Source: Candidatus Nitrosopumilus sp. (GTDB lineage: Archaea > Thermoproteota > Nitrososphaeria > Nitrososphaerales > Nitrosopumilaceae). From it: a DNA stretch of 36,552 bases. A program made the translations under genes and the position numbers. The stretch covers positions 1 through 36,552 of the forward strand of contig JAOTYR010000006.1 of NCBI GenBank assembly GCA_029861785.1. The letters are read 5' to 3'. Below, one piece after another: positions 9,067-24,600 of the stretch. How positions within the stretch are numbered: the first letter of the stretch is position 1; every line of letters begins with the position of its first letter. The notes beneath the pieces were generated by a model. It was not told where the DNA came from. It saw nothing but the letters and a program-made list of their open reading frames with translations, and searched no databases.

Positions 9067-9975
9067 ATGGTTGAAAGTGTAAATCAAAAAGATAGGTGCC
9101 CGAGATGTGGTAAAGGAACATTAGTGACAGATGCCAGTACTGGTGAGAATTTCTGTGGAAAATGTGGTTTCGTCATTACTGAGAAAGTAGACGAATCAGG
9201 CCCAGAATGGAGATCATTTTCAAATGAAGGAGAAAACAAGAGTAGAGCGGGAGTTCCAACATCCTTGGCAATGCACGATATGGGATTGGCCACAGTTATC
9301 AATCCACAAAACAGAGATGCTACAGGAAAGCCCCTGACGGCAGCAATGAAAAGCACAATTGAGAGACTAAGGACATGGGATAGCAGAAGTCAAGTTCATG
9401 AACCAGTTGATAGAAATTTTAGACAGGCATTTAGTGAACTAGACAGATTAAAAGATAAACTTGCAGTGGGGGATTCAGTAATTGAAAAGGCCGCGTATAT
9501 TTATCGTAAAGCATTAGAGAAAGGACTGGTTAGAGGAAGGTCTATTTCGGCATTAATTGCATCAGCACTTTATGCGGCTTGTCGTGACACAGAGACACCT
9601 AGAACACTAAAAGATATTGGACAATCTAGCAACATTAAACGCAAAGATATTGCCAGATGTTACCGGTTATTGTTAAGAGAACTTGAATTAAAAATGCCAG
9701 TAGTTGATCCCGTAAAATGCATTGCAAGAATTGCAAGCAAAGCTGGGTTATCGGAAAAAACAAAAAGAAAAGCTACCAAGATTTTACAAACTGCAGAAGA
9801 AATGAAAATTTCTGCAGGTAAAGACCCAATGGGTTTAGCTGCTGCAGCGTTGTATGTTGCATGTGTTACAAATGGGGAAAACAAAACCCAGCGTGATGTG
9901 GCCGAAGCTGCCGGAGTTACTGAAGTTACAATTAGAAATAGGTACAAAGGCCTAAAGATTGCATTAAATCTCTAG
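9067..9975 (+). CDS. tfb: Transcription initiation factor IIB (TFB), paralog 1
   Basis: Zinc ribbon CPRCGKGTLVTDASTGENFCGKCGFVI, B-reader region, two cyclin repeats, C-terminal HTH GVTEVTIRNRYKGL. Confidence 0.96.
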   Translation: MVESVNQKDRCPRCGKGTLVTDASTGENFCGKCGFVITEKVDESGPEWRSFSNEGENKSRAGVPTSLAMHDMGLATVINPQNRDATGKPLTAAMKSTIERLRTWDSRSQVHEPVDRNFRQAFSELDRLKDKLAVGDSVIEKAAYIYRKALEKGLVRGRSISALIASALYAACRDTETPRTLKDIGQSSNIKRKDIARCYRLLLRELELKMPVVDPVKCIARIASKAGLSEKTKRKATKILQTAEEMKISAGKDPMGLAAAALYVACVTNGENKTQRDVAEAAGVTEVTIRNRYKGLKIALNL

Positions 9976-15733: not shown

Positions 15734-18196
15734 ATGAGCATGAATTTATTGCTAGTAATTACACTAGCTTTTGTAATTACAACTTTAGGAATTAACGAAA
15801 TTTTCGCAGAAAATAATACATATTTTGATTCTGTGAAATTCATTCAGTATTTAGATGAAAATACTGCCCTTGAAGAAGTAAGAAATGGGAATTTAGATAT
15901 CTATTATTATAGAATTTCGGCAGATAGGTTAGAAAATTCAAAGTCCAGAGAAGGACTAGATGTTTTTGATTCTACAGGAGGTTCATACAGCATATTGCTA
16001 AATCCAGCAGAAACTGAAAAATTCAATCCATTCTCCTTAAAGGAGGTAAGATTTGCTCTAAATTATCTTGTAGATAGAAAATTAATTGTAAATGAGTTAA
16101 TGGCAGGATATGGAGCTCCTATGATTTCATACTATAGTCCATTTGATCCAGAATACCTTACAATAATTGAGCAATTAGAGGCATTCAATTTCAGATACAA
16201 TCCAACATTAGCTGAAGAGATAATCACAAAGCAGCTCAATGATAGAGGGGCAACTAAAGTTAATGAAAAATGGGAGATAGATGGCACTCCGATTGAAATT
16301 ACATTTTTCATAAGAAGTGATGATCCGGTTAGAAAATCAATTGGAGAGATTTTAGCTTCAGAATTAGAAAGGATTGGATTCACTGTGAAAAAAGATTTTG
16401 GAGATTTGAATAAGGCCTTTGTAGTTGTCTATGGTTCAAACCCTGCAGATTTGAAGTGGAATTTATACACCGAAGGTTGGGGGAGATCTGCGTTTGTAAA
16501 ATACGACTCGGTAGGATTGGGTCAAATGTATTCACCATGGTTTTCAAATATGCCAGGATTCAATGATCCTACTTATTGGAACTATCAAAATGAGTATATA
16601 GATAATTTAACCCAAAAGATCTATACTGGAGACTTTCAATCTTCTAAAGAAAGAGAACAATTAATTCAGGAAGCAGTGGTTGAGGGAATAAATGAATCAG
16701 TTAGAATTTTTTTGGCAAGTAAGGTTGATCAATATGTTGTAAATCAAGGAATACAAGGAATTGTAAACGACTTTGGTGCAGGTGTACCAACTAGATTTAC
16801 GCCAATAAATGCTCAAAGTGATAAAGATGAATTAGTTATTGGCGTTAAACAAATCTATCAGGGATCTTGGAATCCAATATTGGGTTTTAGTGATACCTAT
16901 AGTAGACAGATATGGGGAATCTTATCAGATCCTGTTACCTTCAAGCATCCATTTACTGGAGAAACTATTCCTGTTCGAGGAGATTGGAAAGTGGAAACTG
17001 CTGGTCCTGATGGAAGATTAGATCTTCCAGATGATGCAATAATGTGGGATCCCTTTATCCAGGAATGGAGAAAAGTTCCCAACAACGCCACAGCCATAAG
17101 TAAGGTTACCTTTGATCTTGAATTCAGCAATTGGCATAACGGTCAGAAAATGGATATGAATGATGTTCTTCATTCATTGTATTTTACTATAGAATGGGGA
17201 ACTCAAACTGGTGAGAATGACAAAACATTTGATACAGAATTCACACCACGTGCAGCACAAACTGTTCAGACACTAATTGGAGTAAAACCAATCGATGAAA
17301 ATACCATTGAAGTGTATGTAGATTATTGGCATTTTGATGAAGGGGAGATTGCTGATTGGGCATCACTTTGGAGCACAATGCCATGGGAGATATTTTCCTC
17401 CATAGAACAGGCAGTTATTGACGGAAAAGTAGCCATATCAAGATCCGGCTCTACTAGTAAAAATATCAGCTGGGTATCTCTGATAATTCCTAATGATGCA
17501 CTTGTAGTCCAAAGTTATTTGGATGAATTTAAAAATGAAAAATTCATTCCATCATCATTAAAGGGATTCGAATCAAATTTAGAGTATTTTGAAGAGAGAT
17601 ATTCTGCATCCTCAGATTGGATTACAAAAAATAATCATGCAGTGATCAGTAATGGACCATTTTACCTTAATGCATATTCTCCAGAATCAAGAACCATAAG
17701 CGTATCTGCATTTGATGATAATTCATACCCTTTCAAAGCAGGTCATTGGTCTGCATTTGAAAATACTCAATTTCCAAAAATAATAGAGATTCAAGTTCCA
17801 AAAATATTTCAAAAACAAGAAGAATTGAATATCATTGTAAAGACATCTCATACAGATTCGATTCTTTATTTCTTAAATAATAATAGAGGAGACCTAGTCT
17901 CATCGGATACAATCAAAGTTAACGAAGATCCAACTAGAATTAAAATTTCAACCGAGCAAACCAGAGAATTAGGTGTTGGAGCAAATGATCTTAAGATATT
18001 TGCAATATCAAATTCCGTACTAAAACCTGATTTTTACTCTACAAGCTTTCTAGTTACGGATTCTCAAAATAAATTACCTGAGACTTTTCAAGATAATACA
18101 CAATTAATTGATACCGAGGAAGTAGCCCCATGGCTTGCAATACCCATCATTGGCATAATAATTGCGATTATAATTTTTGTTAAAAAAAGAAAATAA
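15734..18196 (+). CDS. Membrane-anchored ABC-type (family 5, OppA-like) substrate-binding protein with apparently permuted lobes
   Basis: Signal peptide; FIQYLDENTALEEVRNGNLDI...LKEVRFALNYLVDRKLIVNELMAGYGAP; later KVTFDLEFSNWHNGQKMDMNDVLHSLYF and ISNGPFYLNAYSPESRTI; C-terminal TM WLAIPIIGIIIAIIIFVKKRK. Confidence 0.85.
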   Translation: MSMNLLLVITLAFVITTLGINEIFAENNTYFDSVKFIQYLDENTALEEVRNGNLDIYYYRISADRLENSKSREGLDVFDSTGGSYSILLNPAETEKFNPFSLKEVRFALNYLVDRKLIVNELMAGYGAPMISYYSPFDPEYLTIIEQLEAFNFRYNPTLAEEIITKQLNDRGATKVNEKWEIDGTPIEITFFIRSDDPVRKSIGEILASELERIGFTVKKDFGDLNKAFVVVYGSNPADLKWNLYTEGWGRSAFVKYDSVGLGQMYSPWFSNMPGFNDPTYWNYQNEYIDNLTQKIYTGDFQSSKEREQLIQEAVVEGINESVRIFLASKVDQYVVNQGIQGIVNDFGAGVPTRFTPINAQSDKDELVIGVKQIYQGSWNPILGFSDTYSRQIWGILSDPVTFKHPFTGETIPVRGDWKVETAGPDGRLDLPDDAIMWDPFIQEWRKVPNNATAISKVTFDLEFSNWHNGQKMDMNDVLHSLYFTIEWGTQTGENDKTFDTEFTPRAAQTVQTLIGVKPIDENTIEVYVDYWHFDEGEIADWASLWSTMPWEIFSSIEQAVIDGKVAISRSGSTSKNISWVSLIIPNDALVVQSYLDEFKNEKFIPSSLKGFESNLEYFEERYSASSDWITKNNHAVISNGPFYLNAYSPESRTISVSAFDDNSYPFKAGHWSAFENTQFPKIIEIQVPKIFQKQEELNIIVKTSHTDSILYFLNNNRGDLVSSDTIKVNEDPTRIKISTEQTRELGVGANDLKIFAISNSVLKPDFYSTSFLVTDSQNKLPETFQDNTQLIDTEEVAPWLAIPIIGIIIAIIIFVKKRK

Positions 18197-18724: not shown

Positions 18725-21700
18725 TTACTCTATTGGAGAATAATTAATTTTATAGTAAAGACGAGATACTTGATTATCTTTTACCACGTGAATATCCCAA
18801 ACAGAGTCAGATAACATTTCTGTTTCAGATTCAGGTAGAATTGAGAACTTCTCCACACGGGCATCAGGGCCGCTATATCTTACCTTGAGACTTGTACCAT
18901 CCACTTGTACAATATCATAAATTTCTCCAGGTTTTCTTGTTGAATTCTGAACTAGACAATCATCTTCAGTGCCAATCACACAAACTCCTGATTCTGAGAC
19001 GATACGTAGATTAACATTTGACTCCTCTCCACGCGGCGATGCAATAAGAGAGCCCAACAAAACTCTTGGACCAGCCTCCAGACCATCAAAATCTTTTTGA
19101 ACAGTATTAACTGAGATGCGATTATCGGGTATGCCATTGACTTTTTCAATAATAGTTTGAGATATCTTTTCCTCTGATTTCTCTATAACATCAAATACAA
19201 TGCTTTTAGTTTCAAAATCGGACTCTACAGTCACTTCATACTTGCCAATACTTGATACAGAATCAGGAATAATAAATTGATATGAAAATGAACCGTTTGG
19301 ACTTGGTCTAATGGTTGTGACTGGACCTTCGTGAGTTCCGCAGGTAAATGAACCACAAGTTATTTCAGAACCGGTTTTCTTAAACACACTAACATTATAT
19401 TCTTCAAGATAGATCAACTTGTTTGGTTTTCCGGTGACAAACACTACATCACCAGGATGGTATTGAGACTTATCAAACGATATCAACAAAGAAACAGGCT
19501 CATCTAATCCAAATGTAAAGTCATTTACTACTCCAAACGAATAGTCTGTTTGTTTTTTTGAATATACTGCCTTTACTTTGTATTGACCTTCACTGAAAAT
19601 TGTTATGGGTAATTCAAAAAAGCTTTGGAAATTTCCACCTTGATTTGGATAAACCGAAGCTTGATGAATTGTTTTTGTAGGTAACTTTTTAGAAGTTATT
19701 GTAAGATGAACTCTTTCAGGAACTACTAATCCCTCACTTCCTTGCTCTCTTAGGATAACTGAACCAAGCACGTTTAGTGTATCACCTGCCTGATAGATTG
19801 GTTTTTCAGTGAATACAGTTATGGGTAAAATTGAAAGACTATCATTTCCTGGGTCTAGTGAGACTTTAAAGAAAAGATCTTTTCCAAAAGATGCAGTGGA
19901 TATATGAATTTTGTAAATTCCAAGATTAGTAGTCGATAAAGATCTATCATCAGATTTTATGGAGGGTTGTTTCTCAGCCAAAGGAGTAACCCACGACCAG
20001 AAAAATTTTTGATTCTCCACAGTAGCTCCGGAGTTTCTCACACTCCCATCTGGTTTTGTCAGAGAAATAGATACAGAATTATCACCTGTTGGAGGGAGTA
20101 TCCCTGATAGCAAAACTGTTTCTCCCAAACCATAGACTTGTTTATTTAGTGAAATTGAATCATCATCTATTTCTGAAAGGGAATCAGTTACCGAAAATAT
20201 CATTGATTTTATATTTTTAAGATATTTTGCAGTTACAAGATATTGCCCTTCATCAAAAATGCTTCTGCTTAGTTGAGTTGAAACAGAAAATCTCCCAGAA
20301 GGGTCTGGCACTGCAGTGAAATCATAGGAGACAGAAGAGCCCGTGCTTCCCAATCTACCGCCACCGGTATCACCAATAATGGTCAGAGGATTTCCATCCT
20401 TGTCCTTTATAGAAATATTTACTACTGGAACTTCAGAGGTAGATTGACTTAATTCTTCTATAAATCCACTAATTGTTATTTTTTCTCCAAAATCATAAAT
20501 TAATTTATCTGTTGATAGAGATAATGGCTCTACAGGTACAACCAAATCAGAGGGATTATCTACTACCCTGATTGTCTTTATGGCAGTTCCTACTTCTTTG
20601 GAAACCTTTATTCTATAATCGCCTAATCTGTCATCTCCTTTTGGAATTTGAAATGTATACTGGAAAGAGCTATCCCCTTCTAATCTAACAACATCCAAAA
20701 TTTTGAATGCAAAATCTCCTCCTTCAAAATCAGCTCCAAGTGCGGTATTTCGGGTTTGAAGAATTTCTAAATCAAGGGAGCTTACCCACAGATCGTTTAA
20801 TCTTCCAGTAATTTTTACAACATCTCCTAAACCATAAACCTCTTGGTCAGACCACAAAGAAATTGGAACATCTTCTTTTACATCCTCAACTACTTCAAAA
20901 GAAGTAGAAGTCTTATCGGAATATTCAGCCGATATTACATAGGTTCCAAAAACAGGATTAACAGTAGTTAGAAAAATGGAGGTTGCAAACTCGCCATCAG
21001 TAGGATAAAGTGTACCAGTTTCAATTATTAGTCCATTGGGATCTCGAAGTTCGAACTTTAAACCTTCAAAAGGAATAATTTTATTTGTCATCCCAGAAAT
21101 ATACAGTGTCTCACCTGGAAGATACTGAGATTTGTCAGTTGCAATAGCAAAAATTCTATCTTCAGGTATTTCTATTTCTATAACCTCATCACCTACTGAA
21201 AAGGTGGTTGATGATGTAGCCCCTGCATAAATTGCTGACACTTCATAAACCCCTTGGTTTATTCCAAGAACGGGATGCAAATTAAGGGAAGTTTCAAAAT
21301 TTAAATTAAGATCTGGATAAAGCAAAACTTCAGAATTATAATTTGGTCCTTTAATTGAAACCGTTATTGATTCTGGTTTAAAATCTCCATGTTGTACTTT
21401 GAAAACTTTTTCGGATATATTGCCTTTAAGAATAGCAGTTTCTCCAAATACATAACTAGACTTTACAGAATCTATTGCGATTGCGACATCTTGAATATCC
21501 TCAGTTACAGGTAATTTGCCATTTGATGAACCAGCATTTGAATTTTCAAATTTCCAATCATCTACGCTGTCAAGATCAAATCCATCATAGATTCTTTGCC
21601 AAGAAGAAAAATCACTTTTAATATCAGACAACAACGGTGTGTTATCAACTACAATTCCATTTTTGTCACGAAGTTCGACTATTTCATTTGTGTCAGTAAA

Positions 21701-22003
21701 CCATACTGTTTTGTATGAATATGTCAAAAATTTCCCTGCCTCGATTACGGTTCCAATTGGAATTGAAAATGTTTGTTTGAGAACAGTAGTAGAGGCAATT
21801 TTCCAACCACCAATATCTACATTTGAATCAGTAGGGTTGTAGAGTTCTATCCATTCTGATGGAGACGCAGAATCATCACCTGGAGGATTAATATCAACTT
21901 CATTAATTACGATGTGATCAGCAATCGATGACTGAGCGTTTGCGGGGGTAATTAGTGCTACGAGAATTAGAATAGAAAATAAAATAGTACCGTTCCTGAT
22001 CAT
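18725..22003 (-). CDS. Large secreted surface protein: lamin-tail domain followed by seven Ig/MG2-like repeats
   Basis: 1092 aa. Signal peptide, IVINEVDINPPGDDSASPSEWIELYNPTDSNVDIGGWKI (LTD), then repeats marked by YVFGETAILKG, YLPGETLYISG, YGLGDVVKITG, YDFGEKITISG, YGLGETVLLSG, YQAGDTLNVLG, YHPGDVVFVTG. Confidence 0.8.
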   Translation of the reverse strand: MIRNGTILFSILILVALITPANAQSSIADHIVINEVDINPPGDDSASPSEWIELYNPTDSNVDIGGWKIASTTVLKQTFSIPIGTVIEAGKFLTYSYKTVWFTDTNEIVELRDKNGIVVDNTPLLSDIKSDFSSWQRIYDGFDLDSVDDWKFENSNAGSSNGKLPVTEDIQDVAIAIDSVKSSYVFGETAILKGNISEKVFKVQHGDFKPESITVSIKGPNYNSEVLLYPDLNLNFETSLNLHPVLGINQGVYEVSAIYAGATSSTTFSVGDEVIEIEIPEDRIFAIATDKSQYLPGETLYISGMTNKIIPFEGLKFELRDPNGLIIETGTLYPTDGEFATSIFLTTVNPVFGTYVISAEYSDKTSTSFEVVEDVKEDVPISLWSDQEVYGLGDVVKITGRLNDLWVSSLDLEILQTRNTALGADFEGGDFAFKILDVVRLEGDSSFQYTFQIPKGDDRLGDYRIKVSKEVGTAIKTIRVVDNPSDLVVPVEPLSLSTDKLIYDFGEKITISGFIEELSQSTSEVPVVNISIKDKDGNPLTIIGDTGGGRLGSTGSSVSYDFTAVPDPSGRFSVSTQLSRSIFDEGQYLVTAKYLKNIKSMIFSVTDSLSEIDDDSISLNKQVYGLGETVLLSGILPPTGDNSVSISLTKPDGSVRNSGATVENQKFFWSWVTPLAEKQPSIKSDDRSLSTTNLGIYKIHISTASFGKDLFFKVSLDPGNDSLSILPITVFTEKPIYQAGDTLNVLGSVILREQGSEGLVVPERVHLTITSKKLPTKTIHQASVYPNQGGNFQSFFELPITIFSEGQYKVKAVYSKKQTDYSFGVVNDFTFGLDEPVSLLISFDKSQYHPGDVVFVTGKPNKLIYLEEYNVSVFKKTGSEITCGSFTCGTHEGPVTTIRPSPNGSFSYQFIIPDSVSSIGKYEVTVESDFETKSIVFDVIEKSEEKISQTIIEKVNGIPDNRISVNTVQKDFDGLEAGPRVLLGSLIASPRGEESNVNLRIVSESGVCVIGTEDDCLVQNSTRKPGEIYDIVQVDGTSLKVRYSGPDARVEKFSILPESETEMLSDSVWDIHVVKDNQVSRLYYKINYSPIE

Positions 22004-23670: not shown

Positions 23671-24600
23671 TTATAACACCATATCGTTCATTTGTTGGCT
23701 TAATTTTAATCCCTTGTATCGATTTCTTATAGTTACTTCAGTTACACCTGCAGCTTCTGCAAGATCTCGTTGAGTAATTGATACTCCGTTTTTAACACAT
23801 GATAGATATAATGCAGTTGCAGCAAGACCCATTGGATCCTTTCCAGATGATTCTTTACTTTCTTGTGCTTCTTGAAGTACTTTAACTGCATATCGTTTTG
23901 CTTTTTCTGTGATTTTGAGTTTGCTTGAAATTCTTGAGATACATTGAATTGGATCTACTACAGGCATCTTTAGATCTAATTCATGATGCAATAATCTATA
24001 ACAGCGAGAGATATCTTTTCGTTTAACATTAGCGGCAACAGCAACATCTTTTAGTGTTCTAGGGGTTTCGGCATCTCTACATGCTGCATAAAGTGATGCA
24101 GCAATCATTGCAGAAATAGATCTTCCTCGAACTAGTTTTTTCTCTAATGCCTTTCTGTAAATATAAGCGGCTTTTTCAAGAACATTTGAAGAAATAACTA
24201 GCTTGTCTTTGAGTTTGTTTAGTTCACTAAGCGCTTGTCTCAAATTCCTATCAGCAGACTCGTGTACTTGACTTCTGCTATCCCAAGTTCTAAGACGTTC
24301 GATTGTGCTTTTCATAGATGTAGAAAGTGGCTTTCCAGACGAATCTTTGTTTATTGGGTTAATTACAGTAGATAACCCTCTATCATGTATTGTAAGTGAT
24401 GAAGGTGCACCTGTTCTTGCAGGATTTGAACCACTATCGTTCTGAAAAGATCTCCATTCTGGACCCGTTTCTTGAGATTTTTCCGAAATCACAAATCCAC
24501 ACTTTGCACAAAATTGTTCTCCTGTAACTTCGTCAGTCAATAACGAGTTTTTTCCACAACGTGCACATGTTGATTTATTATTGAAATTATCTAACACCAT
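23671..24600 (-). CDS. tfb: Transcription initiation factor IIB (TFB), paralog 2
   Basis: CARCGKNSLLTDEVTGEQFCAKCGFVI, STIERLRTWDSRSQVHESADRNLRQAL, VTEVTIRNRYKGLK. Confidence 0.96.
   Translation of the reverse strand: MVLDNFNNKSTCARCGKNSLLTDEVTGEQFCAKCGFVISEKSQETGPEWRSFQNDSGSNPARTGAPSSLTIHDRGLSTVINPINKDSSGKPLSTSMKSTIERLRTWDSRSQVHESADRNLRQALSELNKLKDKLVISSNVLEKAAYIYRKALEKKLVRGRSISAMIAASLYAACRDAETPRTLKDVAVAANVKRKDISRCYRLLHHELDLKMPVVDPIQCISRISSKLKITEKAKRYAVKVLQEAQESKESSGKDPMGLAATALYLSCVKNGVSITQRDLAEAAGVTEVTIRNRYKGLKLSQQMNDMVL

Follow-up and report, generated by a model that had tools for sequence, protein, structure and literature searches.

Few transport proteins have been studied as much as the family-5 substrate-binding proteins (SBPs), whose chain order is assumed to be fixed. 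Oligopeptide-binding proteins have been described from Sulfolobus. The closest solved structure to the protein analysed here is TkOppA (PDB 7fi3, Thermococcus oligopeptide permease A), an archaeal OppA of canonical order carrying an endogenous pentapeptide. Circular permutation of binding proteins has been approached by design: periplasmic binding proteins permuted in this way still serve as ligand-binding modules and sensors (PMC3454389, PMC6335823). These are artificial constructs, whereas the SBP described below belongs to a whole family that evolved naturally. The permutation papers that we found concern engineered sensors, or mention permutation just for sensor design. In the open-access literature that was searched, we came across no family-5 SBP described as naturally circularly permuted, and the sequence-only reading of this DNA, which knew of no description, stands to that extent.

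The SBP gene lies in a 36,552-nt stretch of DNA from Candidatus Nitrosopumilus sp., the whole of which is called the window below. Its features are collected in Table 1. Translation may begin at the ATG at 15740 rather than at 15734, since M(K/N)LLLV opens most orthologs. With PF00496 members (OppA, DppA, AppA, NikA; cluster C) it shares Opp/Dpp-type permeases and oligo_HPY ATPases. It differs from ordinary members in three respects: the profile order is swapped, the protein is much larger, and it carries a stalk and a C-terminal anchor. No Pfam family matched the stalk (residues 672-778).

Table 1. Features of the SBP gene, with nucleotide positions in the window
Feature	Residues	Position	Strand	Basis
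ORF, predicted permuted family-5 (OppA-type) SBP, 820 aa		15734..18196	+	Pfam, phmmer, orthologs
Signal peptide, MSMNLLLVITLAFVITTLGINEIFA, mature from E26	1-25	15734..15808	+	ortholog-conserved hydrophobic N-terminus; modelled helix 3-19; predicted cleavage site
Canonical C-half, placed first	28-345	15815..16768	+	Pfam profile 144-350; TkOppA 319-621 plus 675-722
Junction of canonical C-terminus to canonical N-terminus, DFGAGVPTRFTPINAQSDKD	346-365	16769..16828	+	ortholog-conserved
Canonical N-half, placed second	366-668	16829..17737	+	TkOppA 17-309; Pfam profile 28-139 (weak)
Beta-rich Ig-like stalk	672-778	17747..18067	+	all-beta in model, pLDDT about 70-90; family-conserved
C-terminal transmembrane anchor, then basic end	about 800-818	18131..18187	+	sequence, model; family tails

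SBP_bac_5 (PF00496) was the single Pfam family found on this protein (102.2 bits over the full chain; the curated cut-off is 32.4). Its best stretch aligned residues 27-253 with profile positions 144-350. When the chain after residue 345 was scanned alone, residues of about 466-662 matched profile positions 28-139, a match that is weak alone (E = 0.008). Both halves of the fold are present, and the profile coordinates descend along the protein instead of following the canonical N-to-C order. Comparison with TkOppA was decisive and gave the same order. By phmmer, residues 373-666 aligned with TkOppA 17-309 (95 bits) and residues 28-303 with TkOppA 319-621 (80 bits), both halves being homologous at about 25% identity, the large N-half lobe included. 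Family profiles matched TkOppA 18-309 with the N-half (E = 1.9e-53) and 320-594 with the C-half (E = 8e-46); in canonical family-5 SBPs of the PDB, the C-half profile matched residues of about 180-500. The profile of the whole permuted family matched TkOppA with E = 4e-100 in three blocks: 348-639 to 17-309, 3-250 to 321-592 and 288-335 to 675-722. The last of these terminates at 'SAR', the point where the permuted chain continues into the old N-terminus.

These blocks define the rearrangement. Relative to TkOppA, the chain is broken in the loop between about 309 and 319, a link of about 20 residues connects the former ends (about 722 and 17), and the anchor follows the N-half. This N-half stops just past the GPFYLNAYSPESRTISVSAF motif, and the new termini correspond to the loop after its GPF/Y motif. 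Since the order of the halves is swapped, we did not file the protein as an ordinary member but as a circularly permuted variant, which is homologous without being co-linear. The alignments support a circular permutation of one family-5 SBP fold. The sequence-only reading had placed the C-half ahead of the N-half in one continuous ORF and proposed a single permuted fold that descending SBP_bac_5 coordinates would reveal; ORF, motifs and coordinates were as it gave them, the descent (144-350, then 28-139) was found, and each half occurs once, as complementary TkOppA blocks with a short junction.

Structure prediction was less informative. Two AlphaFold models had mean pLDDT of 64.6 and 60.1 and pTM of 0.60 and 0.54, a modest quality that we attribute to input alignments limited to close orthologs. 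With these models Foldseek, which is order-dependent, found family-5 SBPs; its alignment to the 724-residue 7fi3 covered about 300-310 columns, roughly half the length, and a permutation would be expected to give such a match.

We consider it very probable that the gene provides the only Opp/Dpp-type ABC importer of its genome with its SBP, and that this SBP carries the family-5 fold in naturally circularly permuted form. Judged from its sequence, it is probably a membrane-tethered SBP with peptides as predicted ligand. Both a signal peptide and a C-terminal hydrophobic anchor are present. The signal peptide would export the protein, and its two halves would combine into an ordinary three-lobed Venus-flytrap SBP, held on the outer side of the membrane by stalk and anchor; there, by homology, it would catch oligopeptides and pass them on to the two permeases. 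In family-5 SBPs the original N- and C-termini are close neighbours on lobe I, so the pocket should survive the swap unchanged. The tether would move with the swap, since stalk and anchor come after the new C-terminus, and the binding protein may in this way have been re-anchored at a different point. Such a gene could have arisen early in Thermoproteota if a canonical gene was duplicated in tandem, fused and then truncated.

One alternative to this reading differs in the ligand alone. The same importer SBP might bind nickel, a metallophore complex or another solute, given that the C-half aligns also with nickel-binding NikZ and NikA, with AgaA and with other non-peptide family-5 SBPs. We regard this as unlikely, though it keeps appreciable weight: the NikA-type matches are confined to the C-half and score far below the NCBIfam cut-offs, whereas TkOppA, whose structure contains a pentapeptide, is the relative that matches best across both halves. 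Ammonia-oxidising archaea have long been regarded as nearly autotrophic, and the permuted SBP bears on what they take up via a single Opp-type importer.

The partners of the SBP were then considered. No permease or ATPase gene adjoins it in the window. Its own genome, a fragmented MAG (126 contigs, 77% complete), contains one PF00496 gene, both permeases on contig C100 and one oligo_HPY (OppD/F) ATPase, found on C89. Transporter genes are mostly dispersed in the window's family (f1), which makes the missing adjacent permease a local trait; some members of the family are operon-linked (L070, L073, L077). Among the fetched stretches, 52 loci carried the permuted gene together with both Opp-type permease types, often followed by two ABC ATPases, and the composition of an Opp/Dpp/Nik-type (PepT) importer (two BPD_transp_1 permeases, two oligo_HPY ATPases and an SBP) was seen in operons of relatives. 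The earlier statement that no permease or ATPase lies beside the gene therefore holds for the window and fails for the family, as the 52 permease-linked loci and the genes on C100 and C89 show. The DppB-like permease (L062:2099-3466 (+) and orthologs, about 455-516 aa) has an extra segment of ~200 residues ahead of its BPD_transp_1 domain; it occurs in operons of either SBP order.

An ortholog of this permease was detected in 31 of 34 genomes tested, nearly all of the 31 having two oligo_HPY ATPases. The remaining three are reduced genomes of genus g15, in which permease, ATPases and SBP are absent together. Five genomes (G044, a single contig, and G143, G172, G208 and G215) keep permease and ATPases with no SBP of the family detected, so the partnership between SBP and importer is not strict, and in these genomes the importer may draw on a different binding protein. 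One might conclude from such genomes, and from the isolated gene in the window, that the permuted SBP of the dispersed Nitrosopumilaceae no longer serves an importer and has turned into a sensor tethered to the membrane or a binding protein of the cell surface; a 2102-aa homolog, in which a permuted SBP is joined to a beta-propeller and to two further binding domains, points the same way. This appears improbable, however, in view of the joint loss in g15, of the single permease set, two ATPases and one SBP found in most complete genomes, and of operon linkage in most other lineages, including the three linked f1 members.

We then asked how widely the permuted order is distributed. In Nitrosopumilaceae, 27 loci from independent assemblies were collinear with the window SBP (54-80% identity). 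A survey of thaumarchaeal orthologs, which the sequence-only reading had proposed, thus returned only permuted proteins among those sampled in Nitrosopumilaceae, and separate permeases were found. In the class sample, 58 of 79 genomes gave a match, and every homolog there with both halves was permuted. The same order was present in complete single-contig genomes. In the phylum sample, 255 of 398 Thermoproteota genomes matched the permuted profile (E<=1e-10), mostly at full length and in one block, and distinct near-complete homologs across Thermoproteota (n = 165) divided into 161 permuted and 4 canonical, both sets of counts coming from genomes preselected by profile and being no unbiased census. 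The thaumarchaeal scope implied at the outset was therefore too narrow. Among the 161 permuted homologs the junction measured 20-50 aa (median 22), and 146 of the 160 having a tail carried a hydrophobic segment in it. Plasmid records gave only partial C-half matches (Agrobacterium, Thermus and similar). On these sequence comparisons, the permutation turns out to be apparently ancient and common to much of Thermoproteota, no quirk of one genome.

Canonical-order members of the subfamily were found in two families, f46 (L192, L193) and f45 (L242, L244). All four occupy the same operon position and adjoin orthologous permeases. In L192 and L193 the N-half comes first, and a T-rich linker and an anchor form the C-terminal end. 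L242:7877-10123 (-), like L244, has canonical order with an N-terminal transmembrane anchor, a PTKPTTPTVPT linker and no C-terminal anchor, a layout that differs from that of its permuted neighbours in the tree. These relatives, and the constancy of the junction, bear on whether the window protein could consist of two tandem incomplete SBP domains, relics rather than one permuted fold. Pfam and phmmer do match the halves as two separate stretches. Tandem relics are nevertheless very unlikely, because no part is duplicated (TkOppA 17-309 on one side, 319-621 plus 675-722 on the other) and because the canonical relatives share the operon position; in addition, both halves and the 20-50 aa junction are kept in 161 of 161 distinct permuted homologs. 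That the protein is a normal co-linear SBP, swapped by an alignment, assembly or frameshift artefact in a fragmented MAG, is hardly credible and was rejected on the conservation of order, which is identical in the 27 independent loci, in complete single-contig genomes and across the phylum, with TkOppA match statistics far beyond chance.

To follow the direction of change within the single permuted fold, trees were built after rearranging the two halves into one common order, with TkOppA as outgroup. The two canonical-order lineages, both small, nest inside permuted groups. All bootstrap trees examined required at least three order changes, and forcing the canonical rows together (a single switch) was rejected (AU p = 0.0002). 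With this outgroup, the cheapest reading would provisionally be one early permutation followed by two returns; a scenario in which the same loop was permuted repeatedly would, equally provisionally, need more steps. The number of changes is provisional because long branches lead to the canonical groups. We searched for an intermediate with both orders and found none in this subfamily. L051/L052, which have two C-half matches, were considered as such an intermediate and rejected, since they proved to be a different permutation.

This second class, like that of the window, is a natural permutation of SBP_bac_5 in large open frames. The two differ in the position of the break, which lies at profile positions of about 270-297 in the second class and of about 138-146 in the window class. 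In L051/L052 (771 aa), profile positions 276-358 come first and 1-293 second, and the proteins also carry Ig-type domains and a C-terminal hydrophobic segment. L125, L266-L269 and L272-L274 show the second-class pattern too, with the break at about 270-297; L270 and L271, tested for this permutation, gave no N-terminal SBP match. In L051, L273 and L274 the two profile matches overlap at both ends, by about 18-28 positions, which might be a footprint of permutation by duplication, although such an overlap is suggestive only. Other family-5 groups of Thermoproteota also place the C-part first (L123, L130, L131, L174, L177), and in L123, L130, L174 and L177 the break falls at the same profile position as in the window class, 138-146. 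In another Nitrosopumilaceae genome (G119), the 2102-aa frame mentioned above (L124:6817-13125 (-)) carries three binding proteins in one chain, its domains being FG-GAP beta-propeller repeats, SdrD_B, permuted SBP_bac_5 (712-1346), Peripla_BP_6 and ANF_receptor.

With more doubt than conviction, we suggest that Thermoproteota family-5 SBPs were permuted repeatedly (at least two break points, at profile positions of about 140 and about 285, and at least three order changes in one subfamily, apparent reversions included), with a new C-terminus bearing stalk and anchor as the recurrent outcome. Selection might then have acted on the position of the tether relative to permease and S-layer, permutation being a route for moving it. 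Profile-based annotation names these archaeal SBPs without revealing the swap. A phylum-wide permutation with canonical sisters in the same slot offers a natural experiment on folding order, tethering and docking of SBP to permease.

Two further observations concern other genes of the window. The frame at 18725-22003 (-) encodes a probable surface protein of 1092 aa that contains MG2 and lamin-tail (LTD) domains. TFIIB-type transcription factors are encoded at 9067-9975 (+) and 23671-24600 (-), and a third on contig C100 (L062:5203-6132 (-)).
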